The notes under the pieces are model-generated. The model had not been told where the DNA came from. It worked only from the letters and a program-made list of their open reading frames with translations, and ran no database searches. From contig CATPBU010000132.1 of assembly GCA_955652455.1 (NCBI GenBank), positions 1-14,073 on the forward strand: a stretch of DNA of 14,073 nucleotides, written 5' to 3'. A program made the position numbers and the translations under genes. Shown here piece after piece: positions 5,228 to 14,073 of the stretch. Every line of letters begins with the position of its first letter. The stretch's first letter is position 1. This DNA comes from Candidatus Dormiibacterota bacterium (GTDB lineage: Bacteria > Chloroflexota > Dormibacteria > UBA8260).

Positions 5228-6121
5228 GTGACCGAGAGGCTGGCGGACCGAATCATCCGGAGGCAGACCTGGCTGGAGACGGTGGCGGACGTGGTCCAGG
5301 GGGCCGTTGGGGGCGTGTACGGTGCCCTCGGCCGGCCGGGCCGCGCGCTCAAGAACGTGATGCACGGGACCACCCTGCTGGGGCATCCCCTTCATCCCGC
5401 GGTGAGCGACATGCCGATCGGCGCCTGGGCGACCGGGGTTGTCGCTGACTTCGTCGCCCACTTCACGCACGGACTGCCCACGCAGGCCGGAGACGTGGCG
5501 CTCGCTGTCGGCCTGTCCGCGGCGGCGCTGGCCGCGCTGACCGGTCTGACCGACTATCACGAAACCATTGGTCACGAGCGCCGTGTCGCCACCGCGCACG
5601 GCTTGACAATGGTCGCAGTGGTTGGGATCGATATTGCATCCCTTGCGCTGCGATGGTGGGGATCTCCGTCCCTGCACGCGCTTGCCGTCGCGCTGTCGAC
5701 AGTGGGATTCGCCGGGGTGATGCTGGGCGGGTATCTTGGCGGCCACCTCGTGTTCGGCATCGGCACCATGGTGAACCGCAACGCGTTCGCCGAGGGCCCC
5801 GAAGACTATGTCGCCGTTGGCGGTGAGGACGACTTTCCAGAGGGTCAGTTGCGCCGTGTGAGTGCCGCGGGAATGCCGGCTCTGGTCGTGCGCCGCGCCG
5901 GGATGCTGTACGCGTTGGCTGCGGTGTGCTCCCACGCTGGTGGACCGCTCGATGAGGGGACGCTCGATGGTTTGCGGGTCACGTGCCCGTGGCATGGATC
6001 GGTGTTCTCGGTTGACTCGGGCAGGGTGTGTGGCGGACCGGCCACGTTTGATCAGCCGCGCTTCAACATCCGGGAGCGCGACGGCCGGGTTGAACTGAAG
6101 CTCGCGGTGCCGCTCCATTGA
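5228..6121 (+). CDS. DUF2231 membrane protein with C-terminal Rieske [2Fe-2S] domain
   Basis: This 297-residue protein starts at GTG 5228, with GAGGG at 5217-5221 six bases upstream. Residues 50-180 form a DUF2231 membrane domain with the hallmark [21 protein letters not shown], followed by about four hydrophobic segments ([49 protein letters not shown]). Residues 190-297 form a Rieske domain. Its cluster ligands are Cys234 and His236 in CSHAGGPL and Cys253 and His256 in CPWHGSVF, so all four expected ligands are present. The protein is probably a membrane-anchored electron carrier, although its partner is unknown. The divergent Fe-S-type regulator gives a plausible context for control. The stop overlaps the TTG start of the next gene (TTGA). 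Confidence 0.9.
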
Positions 6122-6810
6122 CCTCGCTGTTCTTGTCCGACGCCTCGGCGGACGATGAGTCCCGGCCTCGCGACGCGAGCTCGGAGGCTCATGCTTGCAG
6201 CAGCTGTCCGTCGGTCCGCGCGTTGCCCGCGGCGCCGCGCATGATCGAGGCCGGACACTCGGTGGCGCGACTTCTACGCTTCCTAGGCGAAGACCCAACG
6301 CGGGAAGGTCTGAGAGGAACACCCGAGCGTGTCGCCAGGTCGCTGCAATTCCTCACGTCCGGCCATGAGCAGGACTTGGCTGACGTCGTCAACGGGGCCG
6401 TTTTTGCCGAGACCTATTCCGAGATGGTCGTCGTGCGCGACATCGACGTGTACAGCCTCTGCGAACACCACATGCTGCCGTTCTTCGGTCGCGCCCACGT
6501 CGCCTACATCCCCGACGGCCGGGTGATCGGCCTCAGCAAGCTTCCTCGGATTGTTGAACTGTTTGCACGGCGGCTCCAACTGCAGGAGCGGCTCACCACG
6601 CAGGTTGCGGAAGCTCTGGACTCTGTGCTCGCGCCCCGCGGTGTCGCGGTGGTCATCGAGGCCTCGCACCTCTGCATGATGATGCGCGGGGTGCAGAAGC
6701 AGAACACCAAGACGCTCACGTCCAGCATGCGCGGCACCTTTCTGTCCGATCAACGAACGCGGGCGGAGTTCATGAAGCTCACCGGCAGTCCAGGCGGTGA
6801 CGGAAGTTAA
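6118..6810 (+). CDS. folE: GTP cyclohydrolase I (type IA)
   Basis: FolE converts GTP to 7,8-dihydroneopterin triphosphate, the first step of folate and pterin synthesis. The core starts near residue 42 ([20 protein letters not shown], then [14 protein letters not shown]). It contains the zinc-site motif [20 protein letters not shown] (Cys115, His118), the conserved [23 protein letters not shown] segment, and the third zinc ligand Cys186 in [15 protein letters not shown]. All key residues are intact. Residues 1-41 are an unusual extension with a CSSC motif. It is real only if TTG 6118 is the start, which couples to the upstream stop; ATG 6241 would give a canonical-length enzyme but has no ribosome site. 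Placement between a Rieske protein and a glycosidase is not a classical folate operon, so it may be a second copy; that cannot be tested here. Confidence 0.93.
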
Positions 6811-8719
6811 CGGAGAGCCGCCGAACGAGACAATCCGAGTGCCGAGCAGCGGCTCCTTGGTGACCGCCGGACACGGGGCCAACCGGACGCAGCCGTATCC
6901 CTCGATGGACCAGTACGGTGTCATTGGCGACATGAGGTCAGCCGCCTTGGTGCACCGCAATGGCTCGATCGACTGGTTGTGCCTGCCGCGTTTCGATGGT
7001 CCCTGGGTTTTCGGCCGGCTCCTGGACTGGCGCCGTGGGGGTCATCTGCTGGTGGCGCCGGCGGAGGGCTGTCTATCCTCTCGGCAATATCGGACTGATT
7101 CGAATGTGTTGGAAACGACCTGGATTGGGGGCCGCGATCAGGCACAGGTCATCGACTTCATGCCTGTGCGCCCGAGCGGGCGCCGCGGACCAGGGCCGCA
7201 GTCACTGCGACTCCTGCGGATGATCCAACCGATGCGAGGCGAGCTCGACTGGCGCATCGACTTCTGCCCCGTCTTCGACCACGGGCGCAAGACCCCGCGC
7301 TTCTCTCAACCTGCGCCTGGGATGGTGACCGCACGAGCAGCAAACGAGTCGGTCGTCCTCGAGTATCCCAGTCATTTCGCTCTCGCCAAGGCACGCCACG
7401 GCTTGAGCTTGCGAGGCAGGCTTGCCGTCGGAGAAACGGGCGTTGTCGCACTGCATCACGGCGGGGGAGGAGGTCGTGCGGCAACGATTCCGTGGGATGT
7501 CGCCACGCGTCTCCTCGATGAGACGGATCGATTCTGGCGTCAATGGCTGGAGCAGTGCAGGTACCAGGGCAGGTATGCCCCGCTGGTACGGCGGTCGGCC
7601 CTGCTGCTCAAGCTGCTGCAATACCAACCCTCCGGCGCATTTGTAGCAGCACCCACGACCTCGCTGCCCGAGTCCGAAGGCGGCACCCTCAACTGGGACT
7701 ATCGATACACGTGGCTGCGTGACATGTCCGTCCTGGTGGACACGTTGCATCAGCTGGGGTTCGTCGACGAGGTCGATCAGTTCATGGACTGGCTCGACAA
7801 GAGTTGCGCCTGCCAACCCTCCAGGTATCAGATGCTGTATCGGGTTGATGGCGACCCGCGGGTCGCCGAGCGTGAACTCGCGCATCTCGATGGCTACCGG
7901 GGTTCCCGACCGGTTCGGATTGGCAATGCGGCGGCCGATCAGAGGCAGCTCGATGTCTACGGCGAGGTGATGGAGGCTGCCCACGTAGCGTGGAAGCGCG
8001 GCAAACACATGCCCCGACGCCGGCGGACGATGCTGCTGCGGATAGTCGACCAGGTGCTCCAGCACTGGGAGGAGCCAGATGCGGGCATCTGGGAGTCCCG
8101 TGGTCGCCCGAAGCGTTACGTATATTCGCAGGCCATGTGCTGGCTGGCGCTTGACCGCGCCCTGCGCATGGACTCGTCCCTGCATCTCGGCGAACGCCGT
8201 CGGGCAGAAGTCCGTCGCGCCCGAACTCGTGTGCGGCGCGACGTGCTGACGCGGGGCTTCAATGAGAAGCTCGGGGCCTTTACGCAGGCTCTCGACGACG
8301 ATGTCCTGGACGCCTCCGGCCTGACGGTCCCCCTTACAGGCATGCTCGGCGCCTCTGATCCGCGGGTGGTCTCGACGGTGGACGCGGTGCGGACGCAACT
8401 CACGCGGGGCGGCCTTGTATATCGACACATCGGAGCGGAGTCGGAATTCGGACAGGACGAAGGCGCATTCCTGGTCTGTTCCTTCTGGTTGGTCGACGTG
8501 CTTGCACAGATGGGCAGAACCGACGATGCTGACGAACTTTTCGCGCGCATCAGCCGCACCGCCAACGACCTCGGTCTCTTCGCCGAGGAGTTCGATCCAG
8601 CCACAGGGACACCGATGGGCAACTTCCCTCTGGCACTGTCGCATCTCTCCATGCTGGGCGCGGTGATGAACCTGGAGCGCGGCGCCGCGTCACGGCGTGC
8701 ACATTCTCGGCGGCCGTAA
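6797..8719 (+). CDS. Glycoside hydrolase family 15 protein (glucoamylase/trehalase-like)
   Basis: This is a 640-residue GH15 enzyme. The N-terminal beta-sandwich region begins with [20 protein letters not shown] and [15 protein letters not shown] near residues 43-75. The (alpha/alpha)6 catalytic part contains [19 protein letters not shown] near 298-316, [12 protein letters not shown] near 385, and two acidic motifs holding the likely catalytic pair: [12 protein letters not shown] near 424 and [16 protein letters not shown] near 551. Actinobacterial relatives include mycobacterial-type trehalases as well as glucoamylases, so the substrate (trehalose or alpha-glucan) is not decided by sequence alone. 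No signal peptide is seen; it should be cytoplasmic. GTG 6797 overlaps folE by 14 bases; GTG 6839 or ATG 6906 are possible later starts, the latter still keeping the whole domain. Confidence 0.92.
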
Positions 8720-9049: not shown

Positions 9050-9313
9050 GTGGCAGGAGTAACACGGCGCGGATTCATCACCACGTCGGCCGGGGCAGTG
9101 GCGGGCCTGGCGACCGCCGGTGCGGCGGGCGGCGCGATCTCAGCAGCGTTGGGCTCGTCAGCGGGAAGCCTGGTCGCCGCTCACAGTGACCAGATCCTGG
9201 TGGCATACGTCCGACCCGGATCCCATGGCGACGTCACGGTGGTGACTGGGAACCGTGAGGTCACGTCCCACGATCCCAGCTTGGTGCGGCGCATCCAGAA
9301 GGCAGCCGGGTGA
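9050..9313 (+). CDS. Small Tat-signal protein, unknown function
   Basis: This 87-residue protein has a textbook twin-arginine signal. TRRGFITTSAGAVAGLA (residues 5-21) gives the RR-x-F/I pattern, followed by a moderately hydrophobic Ala/Gly-rich stretch to about residue 44. No clear AxA cleavage site is obvious, although SLVAAHS near 40-46 could serve; an uncleaved anchor is possible. The remaining 42 residues form a small domain (DQILVAYVRPG, GDVTVVTGNREV, then SHDPSLVRRIQKAAG) that looks like a short beta-hairpin plus helix. There are no cysteines and no recognisable cofactor site. It is the first gene of a four-gene unit with a DUF4331 protein and TatA. A role as a Tat-targeting escort for the next gene's product is a hypothesis based on this context. 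Confidence 0.8.
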   Translation: MAGVTRRGFITTSAGAVAGLATAGAAGGAISAALGSSAGSLVAAHSDQILVAYVRPGSHGDVTVVTGNREVTSHDPSLVRRIQKAAG

Positions 9314-9361
9314 CCAGCGCGCACGTCGTGAACGCACGATCCCACCACGTAGGAGCAAGCA

Positions 9362-10798
9362 ATGTCCTCGCATAAGGAAGCGCCGGCGATCGCGGAGGAT
9401 CCGTCGGCAGACAACACGGACCTCTATGCCTTCGTCAGTCCCGATAGTCCTGACACCGTCACCCTGATCGCCAACTTCGTCCCGCTCGAGGATCCCGCCG
9501 GAGGCCCGAACTTCAGCGTGTTCGGGGACAGCGTGCAATATCAGATCAAGGTCGACAACGACGGCGACGGTGTCGAGGACGTGGTCTTCGGGTTCCATTT
9601 CTCCACCACGTATGCATATCCGAATTCCTTCCTGTACAACATTGGCCCGATCACAACGCTGGACAGTGCCAACCTGAACCGTCGCCAGACGTACTCCGTG
9701 ACGGTCACCAACGTAGCCGCCGGGACGACTACGACCCTGGGCAGTGGGCTGAAGTGCCCGCCCTGCAACATCGGTCCGGCGTCCACTCCGAAGTACGCCG
9801 CGCTGGCGACGGCGGCCACGTACGACCTTGGCGGTGGCCACAAGGTGTTCGCGGGCCAGCGGGCCGAGGGCTTCTACGTTGACCTCGGCGCGATCTTCGA
9901 CCTGGGCGACCTGAGGCCATTCCAGAACCTCCACATCCTGACCAACATGCCCAAGACCAAGGGCATCAACGCCACCAAGTACAAGAACGTTCACACCATC
10001 GCCATCCAGGTGCCCAAGAGCACCCTGACCTCTGACGGCGGCAACCCGACAGACCCGACCAAGCCGGGCTCGACGATCGGAGTCTGGGCCAACACTCGTC
10101 GCAACCGGGTGCGGATGTATGACTTCAATGGCGACGGTTCGATCCAGGACACAGGGCCTCTGGTCCAGGTCTCGCGTCTGGGCAACCCCCTGATCAACGA
10201 GGTCATCATTCCGATTGGCAAGAAGGACTACTGGAACTCCCAGCAGCCCAGTAACGACAGTCAGTTCGCATCGAACTATGCGAATCCAGAGCTGTCGACG
10301 TTGTTGCCGGTTCTGTATCCGAACGCCTTCCCCAACCTGAAGAAGCTGAACGATTCGAAGAAGCCGCGGGCGGATATCGAGGCGATCCTCCTCACCGGCC
10401 TACCGGCGGGGATCATCCCTGGGTTCCAGAACTTCACCGGCACAGTGCAGGCGGACCAGTTGCGGCTCAACATGGCCATCCCCCCGGCCAAGAAGCCCAG
10501 CAACCTCGGTCTCCTCGGCGCCGATGCGGCAGGGTTCCCGAACGGACGCCGTGTCTTTGACGACGTGACCACCATCGAGCTGCGGGCGCTCGCTGGAGCC
10601 ACCTACGCGCTGGTGGACAAGACGTTCACGCCCGACGCGGCCGCTGGCGCGATCACCCAGGGGATCAACTCCAGCAACTCGGACCTCACCGCCAGCAATA
10701 CGGTGCATTACCTGTCGAGCTTCCCCTACCTGGGGACCCCACACGCGGGCTACGACGTCCCCAACGACAACGAGCCGGCGCCGGTCACTGTGTACTAG
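9362..10798 (+). CDS. DUF4331 family protein lacking its own signal peptide
   Basis: This 478-residue DUF4331 protein begins MSSHKEAPAIAEDPSADNTD and LYAFVSPD. The opening SSHxEAP, with the acidic DPxADNTDxYAF, is the family signature. In many relatives it follows a signal peptide; here the ATG sits directly on it, with AGGAG just upstream. Other conserved features are DNDGDGVED (residues 65-73, a calcium-loop-like motif), IGPxSTPKYAAL, and VFAGQRAEGFYVDLGAIFDL. The only two cysteines form CPPC (132 and 135). The biochemical function of the family is unknown, and many members are predicted to be extracytoplasmic. Flanking by a Tat-signal protein and TatA suggests export as a folded partner. 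The base and codon style matches its neighbours. Confidence 0.88.
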   Translation: MSSHKEAPAIAEDPSADNTDLYAFVSPDSPDTVTLIANFVPLEDPAGGPNFSVFGDSVQYQIKVDNDGDGVEDVVFGFHFSTTYAYPNSFLYNIGPITTLDSANLNRRQTYSVTVTNVAAGTTTTLGSGLKCPPCNIGPASTPKYAALATAATYDLGGGHKVFAGQRAEGFYVDLGAIFDLGDLRPFQNLHILTNMPKTKGINATKYKNVHTIAIQVPKSTLTSDGGNPTDPTKPGSTIGVWANTRRNRVRMYDFNGDGSIQDTGPLVQVSRLGNPLINEVIIPIGKKDYWNSQQPSNDSQFASNYANPELSTLLPVLYPNAFPNLKKLNDSKKPRADIEAILLTGLPAGIIPGFQNFTGTVQADQLRLNMAIPPAKKPSNLGLLGADAAGFPNGRRVFDDVTTIELRALAGATYALVDKTFTPDAAAGAITQGINSSNSDLTASNTVHYLSSFPYLGTPHAGYDVPNDNEPAPVTVY

Positions 10799-10813
10799 AC
10801 GACCGCATGTCTC

Positions 10814-11185
10814 ATGACTGAGGAGATTCAACACGGCTCAACCCGCGCGGGCGCGGTCATCGCGGACATCGGCGGTGATCGCGGCGCGCTGATCCTCTAC
10901 ACCCCCGACGCCATGGCTGGCATGGAGATTGAAATCAGTCCGCTGGATAGCGACGAGAGAACACACGTCGCTGTCCTTGAGCGCCGCGTCGGTCCGGTGC
11001 CTTTCTTTGCCGCCTTCTATCCGATGCTCACCGCCAGGGAGTACATGGTGTGGCGTCCTGACGGTGCGCCCCTCGGTGCCCTAGCGATCGCTGGCGGTGT
11101 GGTGACCGAGGCCGCTGTCGTCACCGCTGCCGACGGCGGCGCGATGCTCGCCGCCCACTCACGACCGCCGACCGTCATCCCCTGA
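10814..11185 (+). CDS. Conserved-looking small protein of unknown function
   Basis: This 123-residue protein starts at ATG 10814, 15 bases after the DUF4331 stop. It contains GAVIADIGGDRGALILYTPD and MAGMEIEISPLDSDERTHVAV, then LERRVGPVPFFAAFYPMLTA and REYMVWRPDGAP. The regular alternation of short hydrophobic strands and turns suggests a compact all-beta domain. There is no signal peptide, membrane helix or cysteine. I associate this sequence style with unnamed actinobacterial proteins but cannot assign a family. Its position between a DUF4331 gene and tatA, with short spacing, argues that it works with them, for example as an accessory or maturation factor. That is inference. Confidence 0.75.
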   Translation: MTEEIQHGSTRAGAVIADIGGDRGALILYTPDAMAGMEIEISPLDSDERTHVAVLERRVGPVPFFAAFYPMLTAREYMVWRPDGAPLGALAIAGGVVTEAAVVTAADGGAMLAAHSRPPTVIP

Positions 11186-11207
11186 TGCGGATGACATCAC
11201 CACAAAT

Positions 11208-11212
11208 GGAGG
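11208..11212 (+). promoter_or_regulatory. Ribosome binding site fixing the TatA start at 11221
   Basis: GGAGG lies eight bases before ATG 11221. The in-frame ATG at 11185 overlaps the previous stop but would add 12 polar residues before the TatA membrane helix and has no comparable site. Confidence 0.7.
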
Positions 11213-11220
11213 TGGCACAC

Positions 11221-11493
11221 ATGCCCTTTATCGGTACCGGTCATATCTGGCTCATCGGGATCCTGCTCATCATCGTGCTGATCATCTGGGGTCCCGGCAA
11301 GCTCCCAGACGTCGGCTCCGGTATGGGCCGGGCAATCCGCGAGTTCCGCAAGGCCTCGAGCGAGACCAAGGAGCAGTTCGGGAGCGCCACCAGCGTCAAC
11401 ACTGCGCCGGTGGCAGGTGACGACGACGTCGCTCCCGCCCGGCCCATCCAGCCGGTCGCAGTCGCGTCGAAGGAGCCCATCGCGGGTACATGA
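11221..11493 (+). CDS. tatA: Twin-arginine translocase subunit TatA/TatE
   Basis: This 90-residue TatA-type protein has a short N-terminal helix (GHIWLIGILLIIVLIIWGPG), the hinge GPGKLPDVG in place of the usual FGPKKLPELG, and an amphipathic helix (GMGRAIREFRKASSETKEQF). A low-complexity acidic/Ala/Pro tail follows. TatA multimerises to form the pathway for folded Tat substrates in the cytoplasmic membrane. No tatB or tatC is in the window, so it would have to work with TatC encoded elsewhere. Its place at the end of a unit led by a Tat-signal protein suggests a dedicated, substrate-linked paralog. The stop codon lies in a 12-bp palindrome shared with the convergent gene's stop. Confidence 0.9.
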   Translation: MPFIGTGHIWLIGILLIIVLIIWGPGKLPDVGSGMGRAIREFRKASSETKEQFGSATSVNTAPVAGDDDVAPARPIQPVAVASKEPIAGT

Positions 11494-11502
11494 AGCGCTT
11501 CA
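11491..11502. repeat. 12-bp perfect palindrome joining two convergent stop codons
   Basis: TGAAGCGCTTCA is its own reverse complement. Its first TGA is the tatA stop and its last three bases are the stop of the minus-strand gene. It could be coincidental or part of a very short bidirectional terminator. There is no loop or T-run, so a stable RNA hairpin is doubtful. Confidence 0.6.
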
Positions 11503-11919
11503 GGCGGCGATGGCTACCTCGCCAGCTGCAGCGCTGACGGCGAGTTCTCTGGCGCTGGCGATTGCCTCCTCGACGCCGCCGTCGAGCGACGAGACGCCGG
11601 CTCGCAGCGTTTCCCGGAGGCCCAGCTTGCTCATTTGCTTCAGCAGCCGTTTCGCTGCCACGACACCCGAATTGACGCCGCCGTCGCGGATCAACAGGGC
11701 CGCCGCGCCGCCCTCGAGGATCGTGACTGGCTCGTTGGCCCGCGCATACGCGATCACCAATGCGGCATACCCTGCTCGAGCACTGGCTGGAATCGCTTCA
11801 TCGATGACAAACAGGCAACACGCACCATCCCCGGTCACCGCCCCGGCCGCCGCGACGAATCGGTCGTAACCGATCGCCCAGGGGAGCTGCGAGATCGGCG
11901 GCAGCTCCATCGGTGCCAC
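11500..11919 (-). CDS. Short degenerate GGDEF-like protein
   Basis: This 139-residue protein follows the order of a GGDEF domain. An early strand GACCLFVIDEA stands where LALLLLDLDxF is expected. A helix ALVIAYARANEPVTIL comes before EGGAAALLI, at the place of the RxGGDEFxxLL signature. VAAKRLLKQM and the strand TLRAGVSSL follow, then a helix with EEAIASAREL and GEVAIA. The GGDEF signature is replaced by EGGAAA (69-74), and the substrate-binding loop region is shortened, so diguanylate cyclase activity is very unlikely. It begins three bases after the response regulator stop (GTG 11919; ATG 11910 is an alternative), so the two are co-expressed. It might bind the regulator or a nucleotide as a non-catalytic output. 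The fold assignment comes from pattern alignment by eye only. Confidence 0.6.
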   Translation of the reverse strand: MAPMELPPISQLPWAIGYDRFVAAAGAVTGDGACCLFVIDEAIPASARAGYAALVIAYARANEPVTILEGGAAALLIRDGGVNSGVVAAKRLLKQMSKLGLRETLRAGVSSLDGGVEEAIASARELAVSAAAGEVAIAA

Positions 11920-11922
11920 CGG

Positions 11923-12360
11923 CTAGGTGACCAGGAGGTGGGTCGCGAGGCTGTCCAGCGCGGCCAGCCGATCGGCGAGCGGGGCAGCAGCGGTTAGCCT
12001 CCAACCGAGCAGTTCCTCCACGGCAGCGATCAGCTCGCGCAGGCGCAGCGGCTTGGGGAGCGCGCTCACGCCGCTGCGCAGCGGTAGCGGTCGACGAAGC
12101 GAGCCGCTCACGAAACAGATGCCGCTGCGGGCTCCGTTGGGGAGCGCGACCAGCCGCCGTCCGAGGTCGACGCCGTGTGTGTCGGGCAGCAGACCGTCGA
12201 GCAGGATGGCGCCGTAGCGATAGCGCTCGACCGCGCGCGTCGCCTCGGCGCCGGTGGCGACTGCGTTCACGTCGCCCGCGACACCGGTCAGCGCGCGCGC
12301 CAAGAACGACCGAACCAGCTCGTCGTCCTCGACGATCAAGAGGGGAGGGGAGAGTTGCAC
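11923..12360 (-). CDS. Stand-alone response regulator receiver protein
   Basis: This 145-residue CheY-like receiver has the acidic cluster LLIVEDDE (residues 7-14), the phosphoacceptor Asp55 in ILLDGLLPD, the switch Ser85 in CFVSGSL, and Lys103 in LPKPLRLRELIAAVEELL. All key positions are intact. About 30 residues follow the receiver (RLTAAAPLADRLAALDSLAT) without a DNA-binding domain, so output must occur through a partner. The best candidate is the GGDEF-like protein encoded three bases downstream. No histidine kinase is in the window. The GTG start has a TAGGAT -10 seven bases upstream, within an 18-bp gap from the previous gene, so separate leaderless initiation is possible in addition to read-through. 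Confidence 0.85.
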   Translation of the reverse strand: MQLSPPLLIVEDDELVRSFLARALTGVAGDVNAVATGAEATRAVERYRYGAILLDGLLPDTHGVDLGRRLVALPNGARSGICFVSGSLRRPLPLRSGVSALPKPLRLRELIAAVEELLGWRLTAAAPLADRLAALDSLATHLLVT

Positions 12361-12367
12361 CTCGGTG

Positions 12368-12373
12368 ATCCTA
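12368..12373 (-). promoter_or_regulatory. Possible -10 for the response regulator gene
   Basis: On the minus strand TAGGAT (12373-12368) is followed by seven bases and the GTG start, the arrangement expected for a leaderless transcript. It lies in the 18-bp gap between the formyltransferase and regulator genes. No clear -35 is seen, as it would fall inside the upstream coding region. Confidence 0.35.
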
Positions 12374-12378
12374 CCGGC

Positions 12379-13359
12379 TCAATCCTGACGGTGCGGGCAG
12401 GAAATCAGATTGTGATGACATCCGCACTGATGGCCGATCTCGTCCAGCGCGATCGGACCGTCCGTGAACTCGATGCCCGGCTGTCCCGGTTGTGGCGCCC
12501 CGGCGTGCGCCGCACGGACATAAGCCGGTTGGCCGTCAATCGTCGTCCACGCCGGCATGTTGGGCACTCCGGCACGGACCATACGCAGCGCGGCGGTCGC
12601 CGACGGCGCCGTGTCGAGATGTCGGTGACCCACCGACGGCGCGTACGTCGCAGTCGACAGGTCGATCGGGTCACCGGGCCAGTCGGTGAGCAGGCCCGAA
12701 AGTGCCTGTCCCAGGGCGGCGACTCCCAACTCCGAGAGCCGGCGGGTCAGCGTTCCCGAGGTATCGTCATCGGCAACGAGCAGAGTCCGCTGGGCCAGCA
12801 TCGGACCCGCGTCCACCTTTGCCACTGCGCGGTGCAGCGTGATCCCGGCACGGGGATCGCCGTCGGCGATCGTCCAGTACACCGGTTCTGGGCCACGCCT
12901 GGCGGGCAAGGCGCTGGGATGGATGTTCATCCAGCCGTGGCGCGGGACGGCGAGAGCCCGGGCTCCGATGATCTGGTCAAAGCTGGCCATGACGACGCCG
13001 TCCAGATCGAGGGCGGTAAGGTCGATGAGGGTATGCTCATCGTTGACTCGCCACGCGCGAAGCAGCGGCACACTGATGTGGTCGGCGATGCGGCTCAGGG
13101 CATTGTCGCCGAGGATCGCCTCGTGCGCTCCCGGTGACGTCAGCAGCCCCACCACCTCGATGTCGTCGAGTTGGAGCAGGGCGAGCAGGAATGCCAGGCT
13201 GTAGTCCGAGGGGAAGCCTGCGAACAGGATGCGTGCTCCCGGCGGAGTGTGAGCAACCCCAGGGAGCGCCGCCAGGTCGCGATCGGGGATGAAGGAGAAC
13301 TCCTGACACCGCCAGAGGTTCGCGCGGACGTCGTCGAGGGCGGGTGATGTTGTCGCCAC
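12379..13359 (-). CDS. Formyltransferase-family protein with Cys/His-rich tail
   Basis: This 326-residue protein has the formyltransferase fold of methionyl-tRNA formyltransferase relatives. ARILFAGFPSDYSLAFLLAL opens the Rossmann part near residue 42. The catalytic region reads MNIHPSALPARRGPEPVYW (Asn145, His147) and GITLHRAVAKVDAGPML (Asp183), giving the expected Asn-His-Asp set for transfer from 10-formyltetrahydrofolate. A preceding 40-residue N-terminal stretch (LWRCQEFSFIPDRDLAALPG) is not typical of Fmt. After residue 235 the Fmt tRNA-binding domain is replaced by an unrelated region, ending in CGCHHNLISCPHRQD, a possible metal site. The acceptor is therefore unlikely to be initiator tRNA and may be a sugar amine, peptide or other small molecule. 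It lies between mutY and a response regulator gene on the same strand. Confidence 0.8.
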   Translation of the reverse strand: MATTSPALDDVRANLWRCQEFSFIPDRDLAALPGVAHTPPGARILFAGFPSDYSLAFLLALLQLDDIEVVGLLTSPGAHEAILGDNALSRIADHISVPLLRAWRVNDEHTLIDLTALDLDGVVMASFDQIIGARALAVPRHGWMNIHPSALPARRGPEPVYWTIADGDPRAGITLHRAVAKVDAGPMLAQRTLLVADDDTSGTLTRRLSELGVAALGQALSGLLTDWPGDPIDLSTATYAPSVGHRHLDTAPSATAALRMVRAGVPNMPAWTTIDGQPAYVRAAHAGAPQPGQPGIEFTDGPIALDEIGHQCGCHHNLISCPHRQD

Positions 13360-13365
13360 CGGGGA

Positions 13366-13371
13366 ATCCTA
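13366..13371 (-). promoter_or_regulatory. Predicted -10 of a leaderless formyltransferase transcript
   Basis: On the minus strand TAGGAT (13371-13366) is followed by TCCCCG and then the GTG start, six bases apart. This spacing and flank closely resemble the regulator promoter at 5130-5135 (TAGATT, CCCCGT, ATG). No Shine-Dalgarno sequence precedes the GTG. The -35 is unclear. Confidence 0.45.
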
Positions 13372-13383
13372 GCGCCGCAGCGA

Positions 13384-14073
13384 TCAATGGACGGCGGTAT
13401 CGCCGGGGACCAGTCCGTCGATGACAAGACCCGCGAACGCTTCGTCGAACCGCTGCGGTGTGGCACCGGGCACGCCTGACACGGCCTGGCGTAGCGAGGC
13501 ACCGGCCAGCGTGGGATGGCCGAGCATGGCCGCCAGGATGGCTCCCCGCAACTGACGCAGGCTCCCTTGGTAACGCGCGTGACGGCGTGGCACCGCAGCG
13601 GTTCCGGAGCGGCGGAAGACGCAGCAATGCGCCATCGGACATCCCTCGCAGCGTGGCCGTGAGCGGCAGTGCAGCGCGCCAACGTCGAAGAGCGCGTATG
13701 TGTATTCACGGATCGGCATCCCCGCCGGGCGGCTCTCGCTGAGCACGATGTCGAGGGCGGCTGCGCCGACCTGTGCAGGCTCGGTACCGAGAGCAGCGCG
13801 GGCGGCGACGCGACCAACGTTGACATCGCGCGGTGGCACCACGGCCGTCCCCACGTCGCTGAAAGCGAGCAGCGCGCGGGCGGTGTACGCACCGACGCCG
13901 GGAAGGGTGCGCAAGCCGGCTTCATCCGCCGGCCAGCCGTCAGCGGTGACACGAGCCGCGGCCAGCCAGAGGGCGCGAGCTCGGCGCGGATAGCCGAGAC
14001 CCTGCCACTCCCGCAGCACGTCGTCGAGTGTCGCAGCGGCGCAGGCCTCGGCGTCGGGCCAGCGACCCAGAAA
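13384..14073 (-). CDS. mutY: A/G-specific adenine DNA glycosylase MutY (5' end beyond window)
   Basis: MutY removes adenine mispaired with 8-oxoguanine. The frame is open to the right edge and already reads as MutY there (FLGRWPDAEACAAATLDDV, then LREWQGLGYPRRARALWLAA), so the start lies outside; the GTG at 14019 is internal. Visible landmarks are the helix-hairpin-helix LRTLPGVGAYTARALLAF, the catalytic-Asp segment PRDVNVGRV, LFDVGALHC, and the cluster CRSRPRCEGCPMAHCC. The first Cys gap is five residues rather than the usual six (C-X6-C-X2-C-X5-C). The protein ends about 75 residues after the cluster (RFDEAFAGLVIDGLVPGD), without the NUDIX-like 8-oxoG domain, as is usual for short actinobacterial forms. 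The catalytic Glu lies outside the window. Confidence 0.9.
   Translation of the reverse strand, partial: FLGRWPDAEACAAATLDDVLREWQGLGYPRRARALWLAAARVTADGWPADEAGLRTLPGVGAYTARALLAFSDVGTAVVPPRDVNVGRVAARAALGTEPAQVGAAALDIVLSESRPAGMPIREYTYALFDVGALHCRSRPRCEGCPMAHCCVFRRSGTAAVPRRHARYQGSLRQLRGAILAAMLGHPTLAGASLRQAVSGVPGATPQRFDEAFAGLVIDGLVPGDTAVH

Follow-up and report, generated by a model that had tools for sequence, protein, structure and literature searches.

A three-gene cassette proposed to export a signal-less DUF4331 protein by Tat hitchhiking

The DNA described here (the window) is a stretch of 14,073 nucleotides from a Candidatus Dormiibacterota assembly (GCA_955652455.1, contig CATPBU010000132.1), and its subject is a DUF4331 gene without a signal peptide that lies between the genes for a small protein with a twin-arginine translocation (Tat) signal and for a 123-residue protein. 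The three genes keep the same order in all of the signal-less DUF4331 loci with readable flanks, are associated in an all-or-none manner and are inherited together, and some of the signal-less DUF4331 proteins carry long hydrophobic C-terminal tails. The reading that best accounts for the loci, and one that we regard as very probable, is that the three genes form a Tat co-export cassette, in which the DUF4331 protein would hitchhike on a dedicated signal carrier. The pairing of a small signal-bearing protein with a large signal-less one is seen again and again in many bacteria and suggests that the folded large protein is carried out of the cell by the small one.

Organization of the cassette

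The preliminary description of this DNA had reported an open reading frame (ORF) with a Tat signal, a DUF4331 gene starting at the usual mature N-terminus, a small ORF and a TatA gene, all on one strand; sequence inspection and hidden Markov model (HMM) searches confirm this arrangement of four forward-strand genes separated by short gaps. The first (9050..9313, forward strand) codes for the proposed escort or signal carrier, an 87-residue protein with a GTG start and GGGAGG upstream. It reads VAGVTRRGFITTSAGAVAGLATAG..., includes the sequence TRRGFI, and continues into a mature part of about 42 residues, which forms a conserved C-terminal domain.

The second gene (9362..10798, forward strand) codes for the proposed Tat passenger, a protein of 478 residues that starts M-SSHKEAP and aligns with the whole of the DUF4331 profile PF14224 (positions 1–421; 464.4 bits against a cut-off of 27). 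Because a TAG stop codon stands in frame at 9350–9352 (forward strand) and the ribosome-binding site AGGAG (9351..9355, forward strand) lies just before the ATG, the protein has no N-terminal extension; an in-frame signal peptide is ruled out by the stop at 9350. A signal peptide split off by a frameshift is also ruled out, since in all loci read upstream the small ORF is closed by a stop codon of its own and codes for a conserved domain. The AlphaFold2 model of the DUF4331 protein has a predicted local distance difference test score (pLDDT) of 85.5 and a predicted template modelling score of 0.89, with residues 1–10 at a pLDDT of merely 60. No PDB relatives were found by sequence, nor by Foldseek at E ≤ 0.001.

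The third gene (10814..11185, forward strand) codes for a 123-residue protein in which no signal peptide is seen and which matches no family above a curated cut-off. It is predicted to form an all-beta domain (pLDDT 83.6), with weak fold matches to beta-sandwich domains (best E 9.7e-4).

Distribution and joint inheritance

DUF4331 loci were collected from nine contigs and from sets of 296 genomes (phylum), 394 genomes (class), 61 relatives of genome G206 and 147 genomes of one order; at most the best 30 loci per search were read, and weaker matches lie outside the sample. Only matches with the SSH motif were kept, and rows with the same N-terminal core were combined, by which 180 rows were reduced to 127 distinct genes, 75 of them signal-less (74 readable upstream and 73 downstream) and 52 signal-bearing (51 and 50, respectively). 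The small Tat-signal partner is encoded upstream of the signal-less genes in 74/74 cases and of the signal-bearing genes in 0/51, and a homologue of the 123-residue protein is encoded downstream in 73/73 and 0/50. The small gene ends 2–237 nt ahead of the first serine codon of the signal-less DUF4331 gene, and when lineages are clustered at 80% identity the association holds in 26/26. A rule that uses no homology, that of a small Tat-like ORF just upstream, picks out 57 of the 74 signal-less and 3 of the 51 signal-bearing genes, together with 13 of 368 other genes. Two near matches come from organisms named Candidatus Dormibacteraeota, and the cassette is present in many Actinomycetota. Fourteen genomes from the Streptacidiphilus anmyonensis genus contribute further loci of this type, and the signal-bearing genes L198 and L201 among them lack both partners; broken or gapped Streptacidiphilus copies (L181, L194, L195, L196, L197 and L203) were excluded from the counts. 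The frame changes seen in the cassette DUF4331 genes of L181, L194, L196 and L197 may be assembly errors or decay.

All 74 small partners have the arginine pair, preceded by T or S in 68, and the pair is accompanied by a hydrophobic stretch in 74/74 by one rule and in 73/74 by another. The Tat-signal profile PF10518 matches 11 of 23 family members at E ≤ 0.5, and six of six hand-picked relatives exceed the TIGR01409 cut-off. At their C-termini the small partners share a pattern around VAYVxDxxxGxVxVxxGxREVxVxDxxLVxRL. A database search with the window protein returned 11 matches, itself included.

Signal-less DUF4331 proteins begin at the same residue at which the mature part of the signal-bearing forms begins. 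Among the best 120 of 7998 scored homologues, 119 start with M or V directly before SSH, and the exception (P0059) has the same start behind an N-terminal extension; all 75 signal-less genes of the genome set have a start codon directly before SSH, with no hydrophobic stretch upstream. The other DUF4331 proteins read, from Actinomycetota, Bacteroidota and Proteobacteria, have a hydrophobic signal that ends at or just before SSHREAP, and the preceding residue is Ala in 50 of the 52 signal-bearing genes and Ser in two. Residues S2, S3, H4, E6, A7 and P8 are invariant across 68 aligned sequences, seven of which are from Bacteroidota. We note that SSH[KR]EAP (9365–9385 in the window) is nearly constant in aligned relatives, whether it is made by the start codon or by signal cleavage, and this constancy suggests that the free N-terminus matters. 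Methionine is usually cleaved off before serine, and a free N-terminal SSH is presumably compatible with an Xaa-Xaa-His copper or nickel site. A FastTree tree built on 126 rows places all 75 signal-less rows together on the same side of a single branch, with support of 100. No relatives were found in the viral contigs searched; 33 plasmid records have DUF4331 matches, all below 60% identity, and the five that were fetched are signal-bearing and have no small partner.

Searching in the opposite direction, with the small domain alone (profile A3) as the query, gave matches at E ≤ 0.001 in 33 of the 147 genomes of one order. The same 33 genomes carry a DUF4331 gene of the signal-less class, as assigned by score in this sample, and the two genes are adjacent in 38 of 38 places, 9–163 nt apart (the G773 copy is split between frames). 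At this threshold the small domain is absent from the other 114 genomes, of which seven have DUF4331 matches of another kind and 107 have none. In a set of 80 chosen genomes it is present in 22/22 with a signal-less DUF4331 gene, and the best E value in the remaining 58 (24 with signal-bearing DUF4331 genes only and 34 without a strong match) is 7.9e-4.

The partners are also inherited jointly where a genome has more than one cassette. In two genome pairs, taken from 15 chosen cassettes in seven genomes, the small partners of orthologous cassettes are 62–79% alike, compared with 25–47% for divergent paralogous cassettes within one genome. The small proteins of G793a and G779a are 79% alike, with values of 47, 43 and 38% within genomes, and the cargoes follow the same pattern; for G840a and G841a the value is 62%, with 35 and 25% within genomes (G841b is broken in frame). 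Where paralogous cassettes are close, their small partners are likewise close (75–100%). The surroundings are more changeable, and in a neighbourhood comparison of 23 loci each gene cluster besides the three occurs in at most four; because of gene-calling misses, this comparison lacks the DUF4331 start for L101 and L114 and the small gene for L111 and L113, all of which are seen in other analyses.

The TatA gene (11221..11493, forward strand) is adjacent to the cassette and lies outside its conserved part. Its 90-residue product matches PF02416 (51 bits, cut-off 21) and falls below the cut-off of TIGR01411 (48.7 against 53.9); translation more likely starts at the 11221 ATG, which has GGAGG ahead of it, than at the ATG at 11185, which would give 102 residues. 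Over the stretches fetched, the window is the only one of 22 signal-less loci with a TatA ORF, and TatA is rejected as a fixed cassette part for the Actinomycetota loci (0/21). The preliminary description had proposed that the small protein is a Tat escort for the DUF4331 protein and that this TatA is dedicated to the unit. The escort proposal has passed its comparative tests, as the small partner is present for each signal-less DUF4331 gene whose upstream DNA could be read and for none of the signal-bearing ones read, and reading the signal-less genes revealed no signal peptide in frame, but the dedicated TatA is unsupported. The third gene, listed there as a small unknown protein, indeed has no family but was undersold, its conservation being as strict as that of the first gene. 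Elsewhere in the window there are genes for a DUF2231-Rieske protein, GTP cyclohydrolase I and a GH15-family protein on one flank (5228–8719), and on the other (11500–14019) a family-less ORF (11500–11919) and genes for a response regulator, a formyltransferase and an HhH-motif protein.

Co-export and the alternatives

In the proposed mechanism, the DUF4331 protein would be made without a signal peptide and fold while still in the cytoplasm, where it would probably enclose a metal. The small protein would bind the DUF4331 protein through the mature domain of about 40 residues, and the folded pair would then pass the Tat translocase, led by the twin-arginine signal of the small protein. The gene 3 product may be a cytoplasmic helper, perhaps a metal loader, or a third travelling member. 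Once outside, the DUF4331 protein would act like its signal-bearing cousins, anchored in some species by a PxTG-like tail at its C-terminus. Reading the loci together, we strongly infer that export is by hitchhiking, and we infer the binding, the Tat dependence, the metal and the role of gene 3.

The gene 3 family is often rich in histidine, which points to a metal. At least six His within 20 residues are found in gene 3 of 11/21 loci (L107 was excluded by the selection rule, leaving 21) compared with 1/304 other genes, and the long His tracts in L099, L103, L105, L106, L113 and L116 are N-terminal or lie in one loop. Signal-bearing DUF4331 genes are often accompanied by a TPR gene and a gene for a His-rich NicO-type transporter (e.g. 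L118, L215, L220, L227 and L231). An N-terminal motif of this transporter is present in 16/26 signal-bearing loci and 0/22 signal-less ones; five of the five transporters tested exceed the Pfam cut-off and fall under the NCBIfam cut-off for nickel/cobalt efflux. One alphaproteobacterial locus has HupE/UreJ. Metal loading is proposed with moderate confidence. Two more genes that recur beside signal-bearing DUF4331 genes, in 10/26 and 8/26 loci, are sigma factor-like and anti-sigma-like, as they are annotated in L212.

The metal-related genes also bear on an alternative that overlaps with co-export and to which we give somewhat less than an even chance. Here the small protein would be primarily a MelC1-like metallochaperone that binds apo-DUF4331 for metal loading in the cytoplasm, with gene 3 as the His-rich donor and export following as a consequence. 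Both the His-rich gene 3 products and the NicO-type transporters beside the signal-bearing DUF4331 genes favor it. However, the mature domain of about 40 residues has no Cys and no conserved His (in the rows of the A3 profile), the likeness to MelC1 is confined to the signal, the transporters do not reach the nickel/cobalt efflux cut-off, and gene 3 of the window is not His-rich.

The C-terminal tails concern the fate of the passenger itself. Among the best 120 listed DUF4331 homologues, 40 (between P0023 and P0115) are at least 525 residues long. Every one of these has a terminal hydrophobic segment with xTG ahead of it (PxTG in 35, without the Leu of LPXTG) and one or more R or K in the 15 residues behind it (at least two in 34); a terminal segment of this kind is missing from all 80 shorter homologues. 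The tails resemble a sortase signal or a tail anchor, as would be expected of an anchored extracellular protein. Three Streptacidiphilus loci (L179 and L180, which are intact, and L181, which is frame-broken) have tail-bearing DUF4331 genes with the small partner upstream in 3/3, and gene 3 is matched either downstream of the DUF4331 gene or in overlap with it. These length and tail counts replace an earlier one made at a loose threshold (64/75 in the genome set and 37/120 in the database), which was dropped as it partly reflected internal strands. We also note that tail-bearing signal-less DUF4331 proteins are possible sortase substrates without a signal peptide.

A cytoplasmic DUF4331 protein is the premise of a second alternative, in which only the small protein leaves the cell and has its role there, that of an anchor or inhibitor for instance, the genes sharing a pathway and their products forming no complex. 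Many of the small genes stop 40–237 nt ahead of the DUF4331 start, which would suit this alternative, but the partner is present precisely where the DUF4331 signal peptide is absent, other DUF4331 proteins have signal peptides, and some signal-less forms carry xTG and membrane tails; we consider it improbable. We rate as very unlikely that the DUF4331 protein exits by another signal-independent route, with the small protein as its extracytoplasmic partner. The export route of a signal-less protein is not readable from sequence alone, which speaks for allowing such a route, but beyond the three genes no cluster is found in more than four of the 23 loci (no search was aimed at other secretion genes), and an adjacent partner with a Tat signal makes the other route needless. 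That the genes share only their ancestry, as a conserved operon with no mechanistic link, agrees with the one origin on the tree but is hardly credible, the trio being retained in paralogous copies, amid changing neighbours and over a wide range (the window copy shares only 64% identity with its nearest relative in the genome set).

Several observations count against co-export on a signal carrier. The Tat signal of the window protein scores below the curated PF10518 cut-off (13.5 against 22.7) and has no TIGR01409 match at E ≤ 1, and TIGR01409 matches only 10/23 family members at E ≤ 0.5; by the rule applied, 20 of 74 relatives have T at the counted position, five have E and two have P, and not a hydrophobic residue. 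The A3 profile was built partly from the genomes counted, so the presence counts are partly circular and the absence counts are not. The signal-less genes make up one clade, for which the tree needs one change only, so the association, perfect as it is, may reflect a single retained event, and related loci are not independent. The long tail is absent from the window DUF4331 protein and from all 75 signal-less proteins of the 127-gene set (448–502 residues), and the lack of a His-rich gene 3 in the window belongs here as well. With the same data in view, we propose only tentatively, and with doubt slightly outweighing confidence, that the cassette represents a widespread and unrecognised class of Tat hitchhikers, in which a domain of about 40 residues would serve solely to lend a twin-arginine signal to one metal-binding partner that has to keep its SSH N-terminus free, as part of a three-gene cassette with a metal loader and with the passenger anchored in some species, in the wall or the membrane, by a PxTG-like tail.

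Comparison with known Tat systems

In the MelC1/MelC2 tyrosinase system of Streptomyces, a small helper with a Tat signal is encoded upstream of a signal-less metal enzyme in an operon of two genes, and the two proteins are co-secreted by hitchhiking, according to the available portion of PMC2758597. The cassette is similar to the system as presented there in its small upstream Tat-signal gene and signal-less downstream partner, but differs in its DUF4331 cargo, in its third conserved gene, and in that its small proteins do not match MelC1 outside the signal (NF047833, cut-off 120 bits; the window protein scores 14.9 and 12.6 bits on signal residues alone, and the best relative shown 16.4).

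The gamma subunit of the flavin adenine dinucleotide (FAD) glucose dehydrogenase is likewise a small Tat-signal partner beside a larger cargo; the catalytic subunit needs it in order to fold and be secreted, and it is termed a hitchhiker protein in the accessible part of PMC6719666. As far as that text describes it, its mature subunit is helical and 121 residues long and its cargo is a flavoenzyme, whereas the cassette has a domain of about 40 residues and a DUF4331 protein. PaoABC of E. coli, a molybdenum enzyme, is a three-part Tat co-export system with the signal on one member only (PMC4273604, in the sections available), and the cassette resembles it in having three parts and a single signal bearer, with the gene 3 product as a possible exported member. 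The family TIGR02811 (formate_TAT, the formate dehydrogenase region Tat target) also consists of very small proteins with a Tat signal and takes its name from a single gene neighbourhood. It matches 16/23 family members weakly; in the six inspected only the signal part is matched, below the cut-off (best shown 31.6 bits against 48.45, residues 2–42), and the window protein is unmatched at E ≤ 1.

Actinobacteria have Tat-dependent tail-anchored and sortase substrates, with a C-terminal membrane tail on a Tat cargo; the portion of PMC10924467 available discusses C-tail proteins that lack a signal and are exported along with a Tat partner, and states that they are not directly identified by its own search. 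The tail-bearing cassette DUF4331 proteins are candidates for such proteins as that portion defines them, and the cassette thus supplies candidate signal-less, tail-anchored Tat passengers.

Tat hitchhikers were described as 'a handful' in 2014 (PMC4273604, same sections). In the literature searched, mostly without subscription papers, no such cassette was found among Tat hitchhikers and no paper contains DUF4331 or SSHREAP. For DUF4331 proteins the cassette points to a likely setting, which is extracellular and metal-linked. On one branch of the family an N-terminal signal peptide appears to have been swapped for a separate carrier with the mature N-terminus unchanged, and this makes the reason for hitchhiking directly testable, be it the need for a free N-terminus, for folding in the cytoplasm or for the loading of a metal. 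The hitchhikers met in the literature are enzyme complexes or enzyme-helper pairs, whereas the cassette partner consists of little beyond a signal and a domain of about 40 residues, and a signal carrier as minimal as this would be useful for engineering Tat export.

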